From positions 124,001 to 188,000 of the forward strand of contig NZ_CADFDU010000008.1 of assembly GCF_902833045.1 (NCBI RefSeq): DNA of 64,000 nt. Direction: 5' to 3'. The stretch's first letter is position 1. Each line of letters starts with the position of its first letter. Under the pieces are notes generated by a model, which saw nothing but the letters and a program-made list of their open reading frames with translations, had not been told where the DNA came from and made no database searches. Origin of the DNA: Burkholderia sp. BCC0322 (GTDB lineage Bacteria > Pseudomonadota > Gammaproteobacteria > Burkholderiales > Burkholderiaceae). Position numbers and translations under genes: made by a program. Positions 3,760 to 56,842 of the stretch are shown one piece after another.

Positions 3760-4959
3760 TCAGGTTTGACGGGCAGCCGCCTGCGAAGCGGCCGCTGCCG
3801 GCGCTGCCTTCGACGGCGGCGCCTTCTCGACGGGCTTGACGGCCGTATCGGGCGCGAACTGCGCGGCGTTGTCGACGATCACGCGCTCGCCGCCCGCGAG
3901 GCCGCGCGTGATGCGCCAGTCATGGCCGCTCATCTGGTCGGCGGCGACCTCGACGTCCTTGACCTTGTCGTTCGTGCCGACGACCCGCACCGACGTGCGC
4001 TCGGCCGTGCGCAGCAGCGCATCGCGCGGCACGAGGATCGCCCGCTGGTCGACCGCCGTGTCGAGCGCGATACGCACATACGCGCCCGGCAACAGCTCGC
4101 GCTCCGGATTCGGGAACAACGCGCGCATCGCGACGGTGTCGGTGGTCGGATCGACCGCGAGATCGCTGAACAGCAGCTTGCCCTTCAGCGGATACGCGGT
4201 GCCGTCGGCGCGCAGCAGCGTCACCGCGATGTCGTGCTGCGCGATGCCCGTCGCACGCCCGCTCTTCACCGCGCGGCGCAGCGCGTCGACATCGGCGGCC
4301 GGCTGCGAGAAGTTCACGTAGATCGGATCGAGCTGCTCGACGGTCGTGAGCGGCGTCGCCTGGTCCTGGCCGACGAGCGCGCCTTCGGTCACGAGCGCGC
4401 GCCGTGCGCGGCCCGCGATCGGCGCGGTGACGGTCGCATAGTCGAGTTGCAACTGCGCGCGTGCGAGCTCCGCCTTCGCGGAAGTCACGCCGGCCTTCGC
4501 CTGCGTGTCGTCGGCAACCGCCTCGGTATGGTCGCGTTCGCTCACCGCGCGATCGCGCACGAGATCGTCGTAACGACGGCGCTTGTCGCTCGCCGCGAGC
4601 GCGGCGGCCTGCGCCTTCGCGAGCGCGCCCTGCGCGGCGTCGCGCGCGGCCTTCAGCGGCGCGGGATCGATGCGGAACAGCACCGCGCCCTGCTTCACTT
4701 CCTGGCCTTCCTCGTAGGTGCGCGCGGTCACGATGCCCGCGACCCGCGCGCGTACTTCCGCCTGCCGGTACGCTTCGAGCCGGCCCGGCAATTCGACGGT
4801 CATCGGCACGGCCGTCGGGCGCACCGTCACGACCGTTGCCTGTTTCGCGGCCTCCGGCGCGGCGTCCTGGTCGCCCTTTCCACATCCGGCCAGGGCCAGC
4901 ATGGCCGCCAGCGCGAACGGCGCCAGACGGTGGCGCAACAGGGAGCGATTGTTGTTCAT
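3760..4959 (-). CDS. amrA: RND efflux periplasmic adaptor lipoprotein (AcrA/AmrA family)
   Basis: This 399-residue membrane-fusion protein links the pump to the outer-membrane channel. It has a signal sequence ending in a lipobox (LALAGC, Cys at about residue 26). The family's barrel-sandwich/lipoyl segment follows (RLEAYRQAEVRARVAGIV), then an alpha-hairpin rich in Ala, Lys and Glu (about 100-170), and a beta-barrel. The C-terminal tail is low-complexity Ala/Pro/Lys. The ATG at 4957-4959 is preceded by GAGGT at good spacing, so I prefer it to an upstream ATG eight codons earlier. It is the first gene of the leftward efflux operon. Its promoter region, shared with the divergent tetR gene, holds a 20-bp palindrome. 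Confidence 0.94.
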   Translation of the reverse strand: MNNNRSLLRHRLAPFALAAMLALAGCGKGDQDAAPEAAKQATVVTVRPTAVPMTVELPGRLEAYRQAEVRARVAGIVTARTYEEGQEVKQGAVLFRIDPAPLKAARDAAQGALAKAQAAALAASDKRRRYDDLVRDRAVSERDHTEAVADDTQAKAGVTSAKAELARAQLQLDYATVTAPIAGRARRALVTEGALVGQDQATPLTTVEQLDPIYVNFSQPAADVDALRRAVKSGRATGIAQHDIAVTLLRADGTAYPLKGKLLFSDLAVDPTTDTVAMRALFPNPERELLPGAYVRIALDTAVDQRAILVPRDALLRTAERTSVRVVGTNDKVKDVEVAADQMSGHDWRITRGLAGGERVIVDNAAQFAPDTAVKPVEKAPPSKAAPAAAASQAAARQT

Positions 4960-21367: not shown

Positions 21368-22294
21368 TCAGGCCAGTTCGGCAAGCGTTGGAATCGACGG
21401 TTGCGCGCCCGCGCGCGTGACCGACAGTGCCGCTGCGCGTTGCGCGAAGCGGATGGCCGTGTCGACGTCCGCGCCCGCCGCGAGCCGCGCGGAAAAGCCG
21501 CCGATGAAGGTATCGCCGGCCGCCGTCGTGTCGACGGCCTGCACGGCCGGCGCCGGATAATGCCGTGCCGCGCCATCGGCCGTCAGCGCAAGCACGCCGC
21601 GCGCGCCCAGCGTCACCAGCACGTTGCGTGCTCCGCCGGCCTGCAGCACGCGCGCGGCGGCTTCCGCCTCCGCCGGGTCCCGCACCGGCAGCGCGGTCAG
21701 CGCGGCCGCCTCGACCTCGTTCGGGATCAGGTAATCCACGAGCGGCAGCCAGCCGTCCGGCAGCGGTGCGACGGCCGGGGCCGGATTGAGCACCACCGTG
21801 CGGCCGAGCCGACGCCCGGCCGACAGCGCCGCGAACACCGCGTCCGGCGGCGTCTCGAGCTGGCAGATCAGCACATCGGCCGACGCCAGGGCGGCCTCGT
21901 GCCGTGCGATCGTCTCGGTCGTGACCTCGCCGTTGCCGCCCGCGACGATCACGATCGCGTTCTGGCTCGCATCGTCGACGACGATCAGCGCAACGCCGGT
22001 CGACGCCGACGCGCTCGTCGCGAGCCCCGCACAGTCGATCCCCTCGGCTTCGAGGCCCGCGCGCAACGCCGCGCCGTGCGCATCCGCGCCGACACAGCCG
22101 ATCATCGCGACCCGCGCACCGAGCCGCGCGGCCGCGACGGCCTGATTGCCGCCCTTGCCGCCCGCCGCCTGCGCGAACGCATGACCGGCGAGCGTTTCGC
22201 CCGGCAGCGGCAAACGCGGCGCGCGCACGACGAGATCCATGTTGAGGCTGCCGACCACCGTCACGCGGCCGGCGCCTGCTGCGGGCGCGGTCAT
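21368..22294 (-). CDS. rbsK: Ribokinase
   Basis: This 308-residue PfkB-family cytoplasmic sugar kinase phosphorylates D-ribose at O5 with ATP. The N-terminal sugar-binding motif GGKGGNQAVAAARLGA and the C-terminal signature DTTAAGDTFIGGFSA, with the catalytic aspartate, are both intact. The start codon overlaps the stop of the upstream rbsR gene (ATGA), so the two are translationally coupled. It is the last gene of rbsBACRK. Confidence 0.94.
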   Translation of the reverse strand: MTAPAAGAGRVTVVGSLNMDLVVRAPRLPLPGETLAGHAFAQAAGGKGGNQAVAAARLGARVAMIGCVGADAHGAALRAGLEAEGIDCAGLATSASASTGVALIVVDDASQNAIVIVAGGNGEVTTETIARHEAALASADVLICQLETPPDAVFAALSAGRRLGRTVVLNPAPAVAPLPDGWLPLVDYLIPNEVEAAALTALPVRDPAEAEAAARVLQAGGARNVLVTLGARGVLALTADGAARHYPAPAVQAVDTTAAGDTFIGGFSARLAAGADVDTAIRFAQRAAALSVTRAGAQPSIPTLAELA

Positions 22295-51873: not shown

Positions 51874-52257
51874 TCACGGACGGCCCCAGATCTCGCAGAC
51901 GTTTCCCGCCGGATCCGCCACGGATATCGCGATCGTGCCGTCGCCGTAGTCCCACTCGTTCAGGATGCCGACGCGGCACGATTCAAGTCGCGCAATGGCT
52001 TCCGAGACATGCGCCACTTCGATGGCCAGCGCAATGCCATGGCCGGTCGGCCGAAACTCCGGATACGGAAACTCGCCACCGCGGCCGGTATGAATGGTCA
52101 GCGTCGCCCCGTCCACGACAAAGCGATACCATGGATTCCCCGCAGCCGACACACCTTCGGAATGCACCGGTAGCGCAAGCGCCAACCGATAGAAATCCAC
52201 CACGGCCCGGAAGCGATCGTCCTCGACCGGCACGAGGATGCCCAGACGCTCGATCAT
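51874..52257 (-). CDS. VOC-fold glyoxalase/bleomycin-resistance-like protein
   Basis: This 127-residue single VOC module starts MIERLGILVPVEDDRFRAVVDFY and ends AISVADPAGNVCEIWGRP, the usual beta-alpha-beta-beta-beta pattern with a terminal glutamate. The ATG at 52255-52257 has GGAGAA upstream and gives family length. The substrate is unknown. Confidence 0.83.
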   Translation of the reverse strand: MIERLGILVPVEDDRFRAVVDFYRLALALPVHSEGVSAAGNPWYRFVVDGATLTIHTGRGGEFPYPEFRPTGHGIALAIEVAHVSEAIARLESCRVGILNEWDYGDGTIAISVADPAGNVCEIWGRP

Positions 52258-53087: not shown

Positions 53088-53138
53088 GCGAGTTGACCTG
53101 CCCGCTGCGCGACACGTGATGCGAAGCGTCCGGTGCAA

Positions 53139-53235
53139 AAAATATCCCGGCGGCATGCTTGCGCGCCGCCGGGACCAAGGCATCACCGGCCGAAGCCGGC
53201 GATGGGCCTGAGGGTTCGCTCAGGCACGAGGAAAG
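53139..53235 (-). ncRNA. Candidate small RNA A with three hairpins
   Basis: The minus strand carries, in order, the 9-mer CCTCGTGCC (53223-53231), hairpin CCTGAG-N6-CTCAGG (53207-53224, overlapping the motif), a second hairpin at 53181-53204, then an intrinsic terminator: TCCCGGCGGC pairs with GCCGCCGGGA (53145-53174), followed by TATTTTTT. The second stem has a G-U pair on the minus strand where the plus strand would have an A-C mismatch, favouring leftward transcription. No intact gene precedes the terminator. No clear promoter is visible, so it may be processed from a longer transcript. Confidence 0.55.
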
Positions 53236-53345
53236 CGATTCGTGCGGACCAGGCGAACGGACGCCGGGGCGCGCAACCGATGCGGTTACGCCGCCCGCCG
53301 GACGCCTGTCCGGTTCCGCCAACGCAACCTTCCGGCGTCGGACGG

Positions 53346-53418
53346 GCAAAAAGCCCCCGCTCCTGCGCGAGCGAGCGGGGAAACGGTTGACCGGGCCGGG
53401 GAAGAACGGTCAACCGGC
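53346..53418 (-). ncRNA. Candidate double-hairpin small RNA D
   Basis: On the minus strand CGGTTGACCG and CGGTCAACCG (53384-53416) form a perfect 10-bp stem with a loop containing TTCTTCCCC. A second stem follows: GAGCGGGG pairs with CCCCGCTC (53355-53380), with a GCTTTTT tail. The C-rich loop could pair with ribosome-binding sites. It may equally be the 3' end and terminator of the decayed lipoprotein gene just upstream. Confidence 0.45.
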
Positions 53419-53953
53419 CAAATTGTGTGCGCGGGCCGCGCGACGATCTGTGCGGCAACTCACCGTTTGGTGACGATGCCGCAGCATTCGGTTCGCTCGC
53501 GCGCCGCTCGGATCGCGCCACGGTTCGAGCACAACGCCCGCGACCGGCACGAGCCTCACCTCGATGATCGGCGACAGCACCACGGCCCCGGTCATCATCA
53601 CGCAGTCGGCCGCAAGCGTGACAGGCGTCGCCGGCACAGGCACGGCCTCCTGCCGTCGTGATGCGGTCGGTATCGCGGCGCAGCTGCAGCGAGAACTCGC
53701 CCAAGACCTTGCTGCCCTGCGCGACGCGCCCATATAACGATGCATTGATCGATTTCCGGTAAGGCGATGCCAGCACAACGCCGACATGCTCCGGCATATC
53801 GACGATGGAGTGATATTGCTTGCCGTCCTCGCTGACGAGAAATTAGTCGACTGTCGCTTCGTCTCTGTCGTCTTCGAACAGCATTGCAGTGCAGGCTGTC
53901 AGGCCGGCGGCGACAACGATCGCGCCCGCCGTCAGCAGCGCTCTTCTTTTCAT
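53410..53953 (-). pseudogene. Decayed lipoprotein gene (in-frame stop and frameshift)
   Basis: An ATG at 53951-53953 opens a clear lipoprotein start: MKRRALLTAGAIVVAAGL then the lipobox LTAC. After 36 codons it meets TAA (53843-53845). The same frame then continues in gene-like sequence for about 60 codons (VSEDGKQYHSIVDMPEHVGV ... EFSLQLRRDTDRITT). Near 53650 gene-like sequence passes to another frame (VPVPATPVTLAADCVMMTGA, then VVLSPIIEVRLVPVAGVVLE). So the gene has both a nonsense codon and a frameshift. The original product was a small lipoprotein of unknown function. Confidence 0.7.
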
Positions 53954-54163
53954 GTCTGGAATTTTGTTTTGCTTTAATTCAATCGGATATTTTCAGGCCC
54001 GGGACCAGTTTCCGGTATGCCACGGATGTTGTCAAAGCAGGATTATTCTATTTTTCCGATCGGCATGATTCGGGCTTCTATTTTATGTACCGTCTTTTTC
54101 GAACCCGCGCTTCGTGAACACAGGAACTCGCGTCATGACAACCGGGTTTCGACATCGTGACGG

Positions 54164-54559
54164 TCAGCTGAAAAGCCATTCCGCGACCACCTCGATCCAG
54201 TCGAGATCGCCGGCGATATCCATGACGGTTTCGCCGACGATTTCGGCAGTCGACGTGGTTGAGGCGCCCGTCGCCACCACTCCGGCAGCCGCCGCGTTCG
54301 CCTTCGCCATTTCGACCGACGCGCCCAATCTCGGATCGGCCAGCCGTTCCAGCCAGTCGACGATGTTGGCACGCGCATCCTCTTCATCGACGAAATCATG
54401 CCGTGCGAGAAAGCGGTCGAATACGATCCACGCAAGCGTCTTGCTTCGCGAATCGGATTCGAGATGCCAATCGACAACGCTGGTCCGGCCGGACTCCCGG
54501 ATTTCGAGCGTCGCCGTGAAACGGTAATCGAGGTACTCGATCTCAAGTTTCGACGACAT
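54164..54559 (-). CDS. Hypothetical acidic protein
   Basis: This 131-residue soluble acidic protein starts MSSKLEIEYLDYRFTATLEIRE and ends GDLDWIEVVAEWLFS. No named domain is recognised. Composition is gene-like, and competing frames on the other strand are not. It stands alone in the eroded 53-56 kb region. Confidence 0.65.
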   Translation of the reverse strand: MSSKLEIEYLDYRFTATLEIRESGRTSVVDWHLESDSRSKTLAWIVFDRFLARHDFVDEEDARANIVDWLERLADPRLGASVEMAKANAAAAGVVATGASTTSTAEIVGETVMDIAGDLDWIEVVAEWLFS

Positions 54560-54885
54560 GGTTTTCTCCGGCCAATTTGCCCTCTCAGTTCTTATGACGC
54601 CCCTTGTACGCCGGGTTTCACGACACCGTGTGCATTTTCGATGAAATTCGCGCGGTGCGCCATTGCCCCTGACGGCATCGCGATACGCTCGCGACCTGCC
54701 GATATTGATCGCCGACGCATGACCGCATTCAATTTACCCACCATTCCTCCCTGCGCTTTTGCTCGCGGTTCAGGTTCTGCCGCGAATCGCGCCGCTTCCC
54801 TGTGCCGGGTATGGCCCTGCTTCGCCAATGCGATCGCACTGCTAAACTCCAGTCAAGAAGACCGCTTGCAGCACCAGAGGAAACC
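54560..54885. other. Intergenic interval with nothing recognised
   Basis: About 325 bp between divergent genes. No gene-like frame and no strong hairpin were seen. A TAAACT hexamer near 54844 could serve as -10 for the rightward gene at 54886, without a convincing -35. Confidence 0.4.
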
Positions 54886-55350
54886 ATGGCACTCGCCCGC
54901 GCACAACAGAATGGCGTAGAAGTCTGGATTATCCAGCTTCCCGGGCACGCCCCCTATGCCTATGCGCATCTCAAGCGGGTATTCTCGTCCGACGATACGC
55001 GACACCGCGTCGTGACGATCGACGTGAAAAAACTGCTGGAATGCGCCGACCGAGACACGACGGACTACGTGTTGCCGTCGGTGCTGTACTGGGCCCCTGG
55101 AAAGGCCGCGGGCATTCGCGAATTCCTCGATCCTGAGCAGGACAGGATTCCGGACATGCCGTACATCACGTTTCGCGAGACGAGAACGCGAACGCTGCTC
55201 GGCATCCCCGGCCTGTCGAAAGTCGGCGTGGCGTCGTTCCGCAACGGCCAGCATCGCGCGCGTTATCTCGCCTATGCAGGCGCAACGACCCTGCCCGTCG
55301 AGGTGCACGAGACGGAAGCCGATCTGCTCATGCGGTACTGCGGCGGGTAA
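54886..55350 (+). CDS. Plasmid fertility inhibition factor (FiwA)-like protein
   Basis: This 154-residue soluble protein begins VWIIQLPGHAPYAYAHLKRV and has a C-terminal core FRNGQHRARYLAYAGATTLP, then VEVHE, which resembles FiwA-type fertility-inhibition proteins of IncP plasmids from memory. In those plasmids FiwA blocks transfer of co-resident plasmids. Chromosomal relatives are of unknown function. The ATG follows AGAGG. No plasmid genes are adjacent. The family call is moderate; that it is a real gene is firmer. Confidence 0.6.
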   Translation: MALARAQQNGVEVWIIQLPGHAPYAYAHLKRVFSSDDTRHRVVTIDVKKLLECADRDTTDYVLPSVLYWAPGKAAGIREFLDPEQDRIPDMPYITFRETRTRTLLGIPGLSKVGVASFRNGQHRARYLAYAGATTLPVEVHETEADLLMRYCGG

Positions 55351-55425
55351 CGACGGAGTACGTTCGACCGTTGCCCGGCGATGGCCGCTTCTCGTGTGGC
55401 CATTCGTGCGAATGCCGCGAGGCCG

Positions 55426-55578
55426 CTACGCCTGTATCGCGTAGATCCGGTCGGTGACCTCCGTCTGGCCGATGCGGCTCGTTTCGATACCCGCCAGTTG
55501 CCAGCCGTTGTGCTCATAGAAGCCGATCGCGTCAGCGCCTACCTGCCGGGCGTCGCTGCAACTCGTTGCCAGTGCAAC
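55426..55578 (-). pseudogene. C-terminal remnant of a GNAT acetyltransferase
   Basis: Reading leftward, about 40 codons end at TAG (55426-55428) and read SDARQVGADAIGFYEHNGW then QLAGIETSRIGQTEVTDRIY. This matches the C-terminal acetyl-CoA-binding region (A-x-x-F-Y-x-x-x-G-W) of GNAT N-acetyltransferases. No matching N-terminal part exists upstream, where a terminator lies instead. It is a truncated relic. Confidence 0.6.
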
Positions 55579-55587
55579 GGGATGCAG

Positions 55588-55670
55588 GCAAAAAAAATCC
55601 CGACACCTTCATTGGTCGCCGGGATCGAACGGCCCTGCAAAGCATGAGGGCACGAGGAAGTCGACACATT
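55588..55670 (-). ncRNA. Candidate small RNA B
   Basis: The minus strand carries CCTCGTGCC (55649-55657), a small stem (CCC..GGG with an inner TGC-AAA-GCA, 55633-55650), then a terminator (ATCCCG at 55597-55602 with CGGGAT at 55620-55625) followed by eight T. Motif and terminator stem are 23 bases apart, as in element C. No gene upstream needs this terminator. Confidence 0.55.
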
Positions 55671-55759
55671 ACACCCATGTAAGACTGTTGCGCATTGTCG
55701 GCTCGCGCCAAATCCCTGCCCCATTCCGCCATTCATGCGGCAAAGCGCGGCCATGAACG

Positions 55760-55853
55760 AAAAAAGCCTGCTCACGCGGAACGCGAGCAGGCAAGAAAAC
55801 GGATCAGCATTCGAGGCACGAGGGCTGTCCATGAAAGATAACGGCACGGGGCG
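55760..55853 (-). ncRNA. Candidate small RNA C
   Basis: A leftward promoter TTGCGA-N16-TAATGT lies at 55881-55886 and 55859-55864. It is followed by CCTCGTGCC (55815-55823) and a terminator: GCCTGCTC and GAGCAGGC form an 8-bp stem (55766-55792), followed by six T. The predicted RNA is about 90 nt and contains no convincing peptide. Confidence 0.58.
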
Positions 55854-56124
55854 CAAGAACATTAGGCGGAAAACGAAACTTCGCAACGTCACGTCGACGG
55901 GATACGGCCATACACGCTCGCGTTGAAGGTCCATGGATGAAAACCTGCGACACAGTGACGATACCCGTCGCTCCCAACCCCGGCCGCCCGCCCATCGTGC
56001 GCAATTCCACCCGGCTTGCTCGCAGCGATGCGCCCGTTCGCTTAGCCAGTCCGTTTAATCGGCCATGTATGGCAAACTTCGGCTCCGAATCGATGCAGCG
56101 CGCACTCTTTACCGCAGGGAAAAC

Positions 56125-56643: not shown

Positions 56644-56842
56644 GAGCGGGTTGCGCGTATAGCGGCGTTGTTCGTTGTCGAGGTCGTCGTCGTTTCGTTT
56701 CAGTTCAGTTCGCGCTGGCGTTTCTCGCGTAGACCAAAGACCGGAGTGTCGTGTTGTTGGTCGCTTGCGCGGTCGGCACGAGGATCGAATGACGCTCGTA
56801 AAGCGATGAGGTATGGAATTCCCAAATTGGGCATTCCAAAAC

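Follow-up and report, generated by a model that had tools for sequence, protein, structure and literature searches.

Very few small RNAs (sRNAs) of the Burkholderia cepacia complex have been characterised functionally (PMC10987360, available text). The closest described systems come from Burkholderia cenocepacia, in which ncS27 and its kin (ncS03, ncS05 and ncS62; family RF02278) are RNAs of 57-92 nucleotides (nt) consisting of a hairpin and a terminator, with several homologues per genome and CU-rich stretches complementary to ribosome-binding sites, where they are predicted to act (PMC5688073, available text). NcS25, an 84-nt Burkholderia sRNA, has a predicted 7-base match to the Shine-Dalgarno sequence of the porin gene BCAL3473, repression of its porin target has been reported, and its neighbours are a porin gene, a downstream hypothetical gene and cspA (PMC10117139, available text). 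S17 from Bordetella pertussis is Hfq-dependent and carries a widely conserved 5' stretch said to resemble RF02278; it is likened here by description (PMC11722255, available text). The anti-hemB family (RF02837, ncS04) is organised as hairpin, hairpin, terminator. The present work deals with three elements, named A, B and C, on the minus strand of a 64-kb stretch of DNA from Burkholderia sp. BCC0322 (the whole stretch is referred to as the window), which share the 9-mer CCTCGTGCC. Judged by their sequence, they are probably trans-acting sRNAs with a common anti-Shine-Dalgarno seed, CCUCGUGCC, that would block translation, and their mode of action may resemble that of the double-hairpin sRNAs known from B. 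cenocepacia.

A, B and C resemble RF02278 in length, in the hairpin followed by a terminator, in the stretch complementary to ribosome-binding sites and in their multiplicity, and they resemble RF02837 in the order of hairpins and terminator. Nevertheless, they belong to neither family, by model score or by seed. RF02278 gave no match to them at its gathering threshold (50 bits), nor any up to an E value of 10; the 12 matches over the cut-off in three relatives (G001, G004 and G014) are all at other loci, and the members examined carry GUCUCCUCC, whereas A, B and C carry CCUCGUGCC. The RF02837 model scored B at 24.6 and A at 24.3 bits against a gathering threshold of 49.5, and the members over the cut-off that were examined carry CUUCUCCUCCCU, unlike A-C. 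The only Rfam match at gathering in the window is a tRNA, and the sRNA matches at looser thresholds are all below the cut-off.

The motif search and the ortholog alignments place the 9-mer on the minus strand at 53223-53231 (A), 55649-55657 (B) and 55815-55823 (C), exactly where an earlier note on this DNA had reported it. That note had described the three sites as non-coding and as followed by intrinsic terminators with 6-8 T, and both descriptions hold: the sites are judged to lie outside real genes, the open reading frames (ORFs) that overlap them being merely mechanical, and a GC-rich hairpin with a run of T follows at A (6), B (8) and C (6), the terminator scan having listed those of A and C and not that of B. 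Counted on the alignments, the gap between motif and terminator stem is, as had been given, 23 bases for B, or 22 if the stem is taken to include a closing G-U pair; for C it is 22. The assertion that chance would not place the motif so often was correct in substance and incomplete in its count. The window contains seven copies, versus 0.96 expected and a maximum of four in 100 shuffles, so that chance does not account for the number in the whole window; the four copies that went unlisted are located within ORFs (52229-52237 and 4028-4036), opposite an ORF (21895-21903) and in an intergenic region where no terminator was seen downstream (56775-56783). Conservation and the genus-wide tie to terminators, described below, are stronger arguments against chance than the count in the window.

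Orthologs were sought in 61 genomes of relatives. Once identical or overlapping matches had been removed (from 43 to 31 for A, 44 to 30 for B and 36 to 23 for C, the weak loci L054 and L055 not being aligned), alignments of unique orthologs were obtained with 32 rows for A, 31 for B and 24 for C, the latter including four copies located elsewhere. Most of the rows used to build the covariance models stem from the genomes searched and match by construction; hence the informative value is the gap to the next match. The shuffles behind the tests of pair changes leave relatedness in place. The covariance search that the earlier note had proposed as a check found all three elements in relatives, with two-sided changes in their stems. 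The strand and order of the elements are kept in the orthologs examined.

Element A (53137-53239, minus strand) consists of a 5' tail, AUCGCUUUCCUCGU, two hairpins (GCCUGAG/CUCAGGC and AUCGCCGG/CCGGUGAU) and a terminator with its T-run at 53137-53175, where the scan located six T after the stem 53175-53144. Its model (R3) found it in 26 of the 61 relatives with 79.9-127.4 bits, the next match having 30.1 bits; as a DNA query it gave matches in 27, all of them Burkholderia and two of them weak (G010 and G011). Two-sided changes occur in 7 of the 26 pairs of its stems, with 99.2% of cells paired; none of 500 shuffles reached these seven pairs and slid structures yielded 0-4. The full motif is kept in 28 of the 32 rows, and the fold has a z-score of -5.0 (53139-53260). 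The flanks of A are likewise conserved, partly because another conserved element, F, lies there.

Element B (55590-55666, minus strand) presents a 5' tail with UUCCU, a hairpin (CG.GCCCU/AGGGCCG) and a terminator with eight T (55590-55597). The B/C stretch used as a DNA query had matches in 23 of the 61 relatives, all Burkholderia, and the model of B (R2) found the element in 23 as well, at 69.8-104.7 bits against 28.9 for the next match. The full motif is present in 31/31 rows and 96.1% of cells are paired. Two-sided changes affect 3 of 18 pairs, all in the terminator; 66 of 500 shuffles reached three changed pairs and none reached the 12 changed cells. Hairpin 1 shows no pair change and three unpaired cells, so its pairing has hardly been tested by compensatory change. 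The fold has a z-score of -2.5 (55585-55685). Upstream of B there is a conserved block (55667-55730, minus strand), which could be a promoter region; its identity is 71-90% per 10-base bin over 23 loci, versus 14-66% for the first 50 bases beyond the downstream end of B. Two side observations arose from the search with the B model. G002 has a B-like element (UUCCUCGUCCC; locus L201, 204-282) some 2.3 kb away from its B, possibly a local duplication, and a recurrent hairpin with a T-run (GCGCGAUGCCC..GGGCGUCGCGC), perhaps an unrelated sRNA or terminator, was weakly matched in six loci (L196-L200 and L202).

Element C (55760-55832, minus strand) is built on a different scaffold from that of A and B: a hairpin (GGACAGC/GCUG.A.UCC) that holds the motif in its loop, a U-rich linker and a terminator whose stem occupies 55766-55792, with six T after it. 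Its model (R1) found it at this locus in 17 of the 61 relatives, with a lowest score of 81.6 bits and the next match at 41.2 bits; the latter is a weaker C-type copy near A in G010, and strong C-type copies away from the locus are present in G002, G018, G019 and G027. Two-sided changes are seen in 3 of 18 pairs, all in the terminator, with 98.8% of cells paired, the full motif is kept in 22 of 24 rows, and the fold has a z-score of -5.6 (55760-55855). Conservation sets both B and C apart from their flanks. The two-sided pair changes of A and C exceed those of the slid and shuffled controls; in B this holds only for the changed cells. The proposal that C has a promoter-like sequence of its own is partly sustained. 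The sigma-70 scan found no promoter there, and a block at that place (55835-55865, minus strand), with CTAATGTT (CTAAGGTT in most orthologs) and TTATCTT 16 bases later, is conserved among the C orthologs and, in part, in the copies elsewhere (L024-L027).

The three elements present the structural marks of Hfq-type trans-acting sRNAs, i.e. an intergenic position, a short length, a Rho-independent end and a U tail, together with conserved structure and a conserved C-rich seed. The reading of A-C as sRNAs is well supported, and their mode of action on targets is plausible. According to the mechanism proposed, A, B and C would be separately transcribed regulatory RNAs of about 70-105 nt, whose Rho-independent ends and U tails would be fit for binding Hfq. 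Each would expose a C-rich anti-Shine-Dalgarno seed, (U)CCUCGU(GCC), situated just 5' of a hairpin or at its base in A and B and in a hairpin loop in C and in two further groups, D and E. Its partner in trans would be (GGC)ACGAGG(A) in the ribosome-binding sites of a limited number of mRNAs, whose translation would be blocked by the pairing. As one seed is present at several loci under different promoters, different signals could reach overlapping targets.

Groups D and E were uncovered by a pattern in which CCTCGTGCC is followed by T6 at a distance of 35-64 bases. It is present in 38 of the 41 Burkholderia genomes used for this purpose, with 173 matches (including overlaps and some chance matches) versus 11 for the reversed control. 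Among the matches listed, B, C and the C copies are accompanied by these two RNA-like groups; some others (in G007, G008, G015, G017, G021, G027 and G062) are unlike B-E. In a family-wide sample the pattern was detected in 11/11 members of the genus, the single match in G007 being unlike B-E, and outside the genus in 20/109 genomes, in unlike sequences and at the level of the reversed control (18/109). The motif-terminator pattern is therefore genus-specific as far as sampled. D and E have a common TATACT box, their hairpin stems differ in a compensatory manner (GCAUCC/GGAUGC versus GCACC/GGUG), and the motif is in the hairpin loop in 21/21 rows, which were selected by a pattern that holds the motif. 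In few-contig assemblies (e.g. G002, G012, G017 and G018) D is on a different contig from B/C and E on the same one. One E locus is flanked by MFS-like and LysR-like ORFs (names by eye). Neighbours of the NcS25 type were seen neither beside A-C nor, by eye, in one E and one D locus, which sets these elements apart from that sRNA; E was also considered as ncS16 (3' of ompA) or NcS25, and both were ruled out by the neighbours. A-E would represent a new set of sRNAs of known type.

The elements had been described as paralogous, and this is sustained for some of them. The sequences suggest a clear kinship between D and E and between C and its own copies, and only a weak one between A and B. Within the window the A and B models each match the other element (26.6 and 24.6 bits). 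In the relatives, the best matches of the A model below the A orthologs are B (G017 and G025), a D element and B of G014, in this order; the B model scores A of G014 at 24.6 bits, lower than other weak matches, which include the B-like copy of G002, a D element and hairpins that look unrelated. The A-B link is weak and due in part to motif and terminator, because the score of B is matched by that of a D element. It is quite possible, although short of probable, that these are genuine sRNAs whose seed is convergent, so that A/B, C and D/E would be unrelated scaffolds and functional analogues instead of one family. By eye, C is unlike A/B and D/E outside the motif, and the links just mentioned are the only ones seen. 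On the other hand, all groups share a common order (a hairpin, the motif in or beside it, and a terminator), and the presence of A, B and C in one cluster suggests an old tandem duplication. The evolutionary question raised is whether unrelated scaffolds converged on one anti-Shine-Dalgarno seed or tandem copies drifted until the seed remained.

Whichever their origin, the seed proposed for these sRNAs was described in the earlier note as single-stranded, which is correct only in part. In the predicted folds, UUUCCUCGU of A is mostly open and the final GCC of its motif paired; in B, UUCCU is open while CG and the final GCC of the motif are paired; in C the motif lies in the hairpin loop with three bases (UCG) in inner pairing, and the same is predicted for D and E. 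As for the targets, CCUC is complementary to the Shine-Dalgarno core, and all candidates were found by searching for the complement of the motif. The leader of the flp pilin gene, CAGGCACGAGGAA, has 13 bases complementary to A and was found in 26/26 flp-like loci (of 30 loci retrieved, 29 were readable) by means of a pattern holding GCACGAGGAA; one flp copy was tested against Pfam (PF04964). A predicted secreted protein, with no Pfam match in its first 100 residues, has GGCACGAGG at its start in nine loci and two more, and a short-chain dehydrogenase has the complement at its start in three loci. In duplex energies for A, flp and the secreted protein come ahead of 589/589 sampled genes and few or no shuffled seeds equalled A on flp, which is no independent test because both genes were chosen by complement. 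For the other elements, the sampled genes at least as good as flp amount to 27 (B), 34 (C), 47 (D) and 6 (E). The three of 41 genomes without a motif-terminator match (G031, G034 and G035) are among the five without a GCACGAGGAA-ATGAA site (hypergeometric 0.0009), a co-occurrence noticed post hoc and confounded by kinship.

Several results weigh against pairing at ribosome-binding sites as the mode of action. The scan of start codons for the complement, suggested earlier as a check, revealed no enrichment over controls that keep GAGG. In an 800-kb sample of G017, in which GAGG contexts were compared at 589 predicted gene starts (ORFs below about 90 amino acids (aa) not being called), CAC before GAGG was not enriched (6/139, ratio 0.99, rank 33). 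In 12 genomes, GGCACGAGG followed by ATG occurs 212 times, a figure that includes the reverse complements of A, C and E, versus 165 for the scrambled GACGCGAGG, and is thus little commoner. When 30 loci per set were inspected, those of the control motif also included conserved starts that looked real (an ABC permease and a RodZ-like gene, both named by eye). Besides, the GCACGAGGAA-ATGAA site is present where no A was found (e.g. G026 and G008), and part of the motif is predicted to be paired, as indicated above. As the complement shows no genome-wide excess, a broad regulon is unsupported and a few conserved targets are possible; the pairing originally proposed stays plausible. The lack of enrichment would suit RNAs that act through CCUCGUGCC as sponges or protein binders, without pairing at ribosome-binding sites. 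This is unlikely, given that the Shine-Dalgarno core is complementary to CCUC and that conserved starts with 9 to 13 complementary bases exist, a point tempered by those found with the control motif.

A wider proposal is that Burkholderia has at least five specific sRNA groups (A-E), which use two or three scaffolds and different promoters, have the single seed CCUCGUGCC and would together control one overlapping regulon including the flp pilin and the conserved secreted protein. It is put forward tentatively and is rather doubtful as a whole. Its interest lies in the fact that a genus-wide seed common to several differently promoted RNAs constitutes a testable regulon.

Two readings would deny that the elements are RNA genes. 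It might be thought that they are terminators or 3' untranslated remnants of neighbouring or decayed genes in which the 9-mer is coincidental. In its favour, A is downstream of a lipoprotein-like ORF of 36 residues (53843-53953, minus strand), which looks interrupted (by eye, at one locus) and also lies upstream of F, and it is downstream of the conserved terminator of F. However, conservation extends over the entire hairpin unit and the motif, beyond the terminator, the block upstream of C is conserved and partly kept by the copies elsewhere, and the motif is tied to terminators throughout the genus, which makes this explanation improbable. Dispersed intergenic repeats similar to repetitive extragenic palindromic (REP) sequences would account for several palindromic motif-bearing copies per genome, but this is very improbable in view of the single strong match of A and B in each genome that has them, the single C at the locus (four genomes also have copies of it in other places), and the preserved strand and order in the orthologs examined.

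Regarding the genomic context, the window comes from the Burkholderia cepacia complex, and the nearest genome compared is G001 (37% of sampled words). The order on the minus strand is dusA (PF01207), a tRNA, and then C, B, F and A, and a Vut_1 ORF on the plus strand precedes C. Between B and F there are, besides the lipoprotein-like ORF, a 131-aa ORF on the minus strand, with no Pfam match, and a chromosomal ORF on the plus strand (54802-55347) with a PFIN (plasmid fertility inhibition) domain (E value 7.8e-21). In strain J2315 dusA is BCAL1625. With BCAL1515 at about 1.68 Mb of replicon 1, BCAL1625 should fall in the part from 1.18 to 2.54 Mb, in which none of the 15 sRNAs listed in Table 1 of Sass 2017 (PMC5688073, available text) is located. 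RIT23a (1,783,299, plus strand), marked as not conserved in the complex, may be near the locus. No sRNA of the main-text tables examined could be placed at this locus; the 2017 study counts 148 intergenic sRNA start sites (PMC5688073, available text), and earlier detection of A-C is possible. Among the matches listed in the literature searches, no paper deals with CCUCGUGCC as an sRNA seed; PMC1766932, on Burkholderia, contains both of the DNA strings sought, once.

Element F (53341-53424, minus strand), between B and A, is a conserved double hairpin formed by GGUUGACCG UUCUUCCCCGGCC CGGUCAACC, with UUCUUCCCCGGCC as the loop, followed by a terminator at 53375-53356. It is without CCTCGTGCC and was found in 30 of the 32 loci searched, L053 and L057 giving no match. 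Its stem is invariant in the corresponding alignment (A4, from which L030 was omitted as identical to L032), so that its support comes from conservation only, and F is a candidate for a fourth double-hairpin RNA of the cluster. Positions 1500-1564 of locus L095 in G014 hold a further conserved element of sRNA-like type, which is also present in L094 and L096; it has UAUCCUCGUA in the loop of a hairpin and matches RF02837 weakly (33.7 bits).

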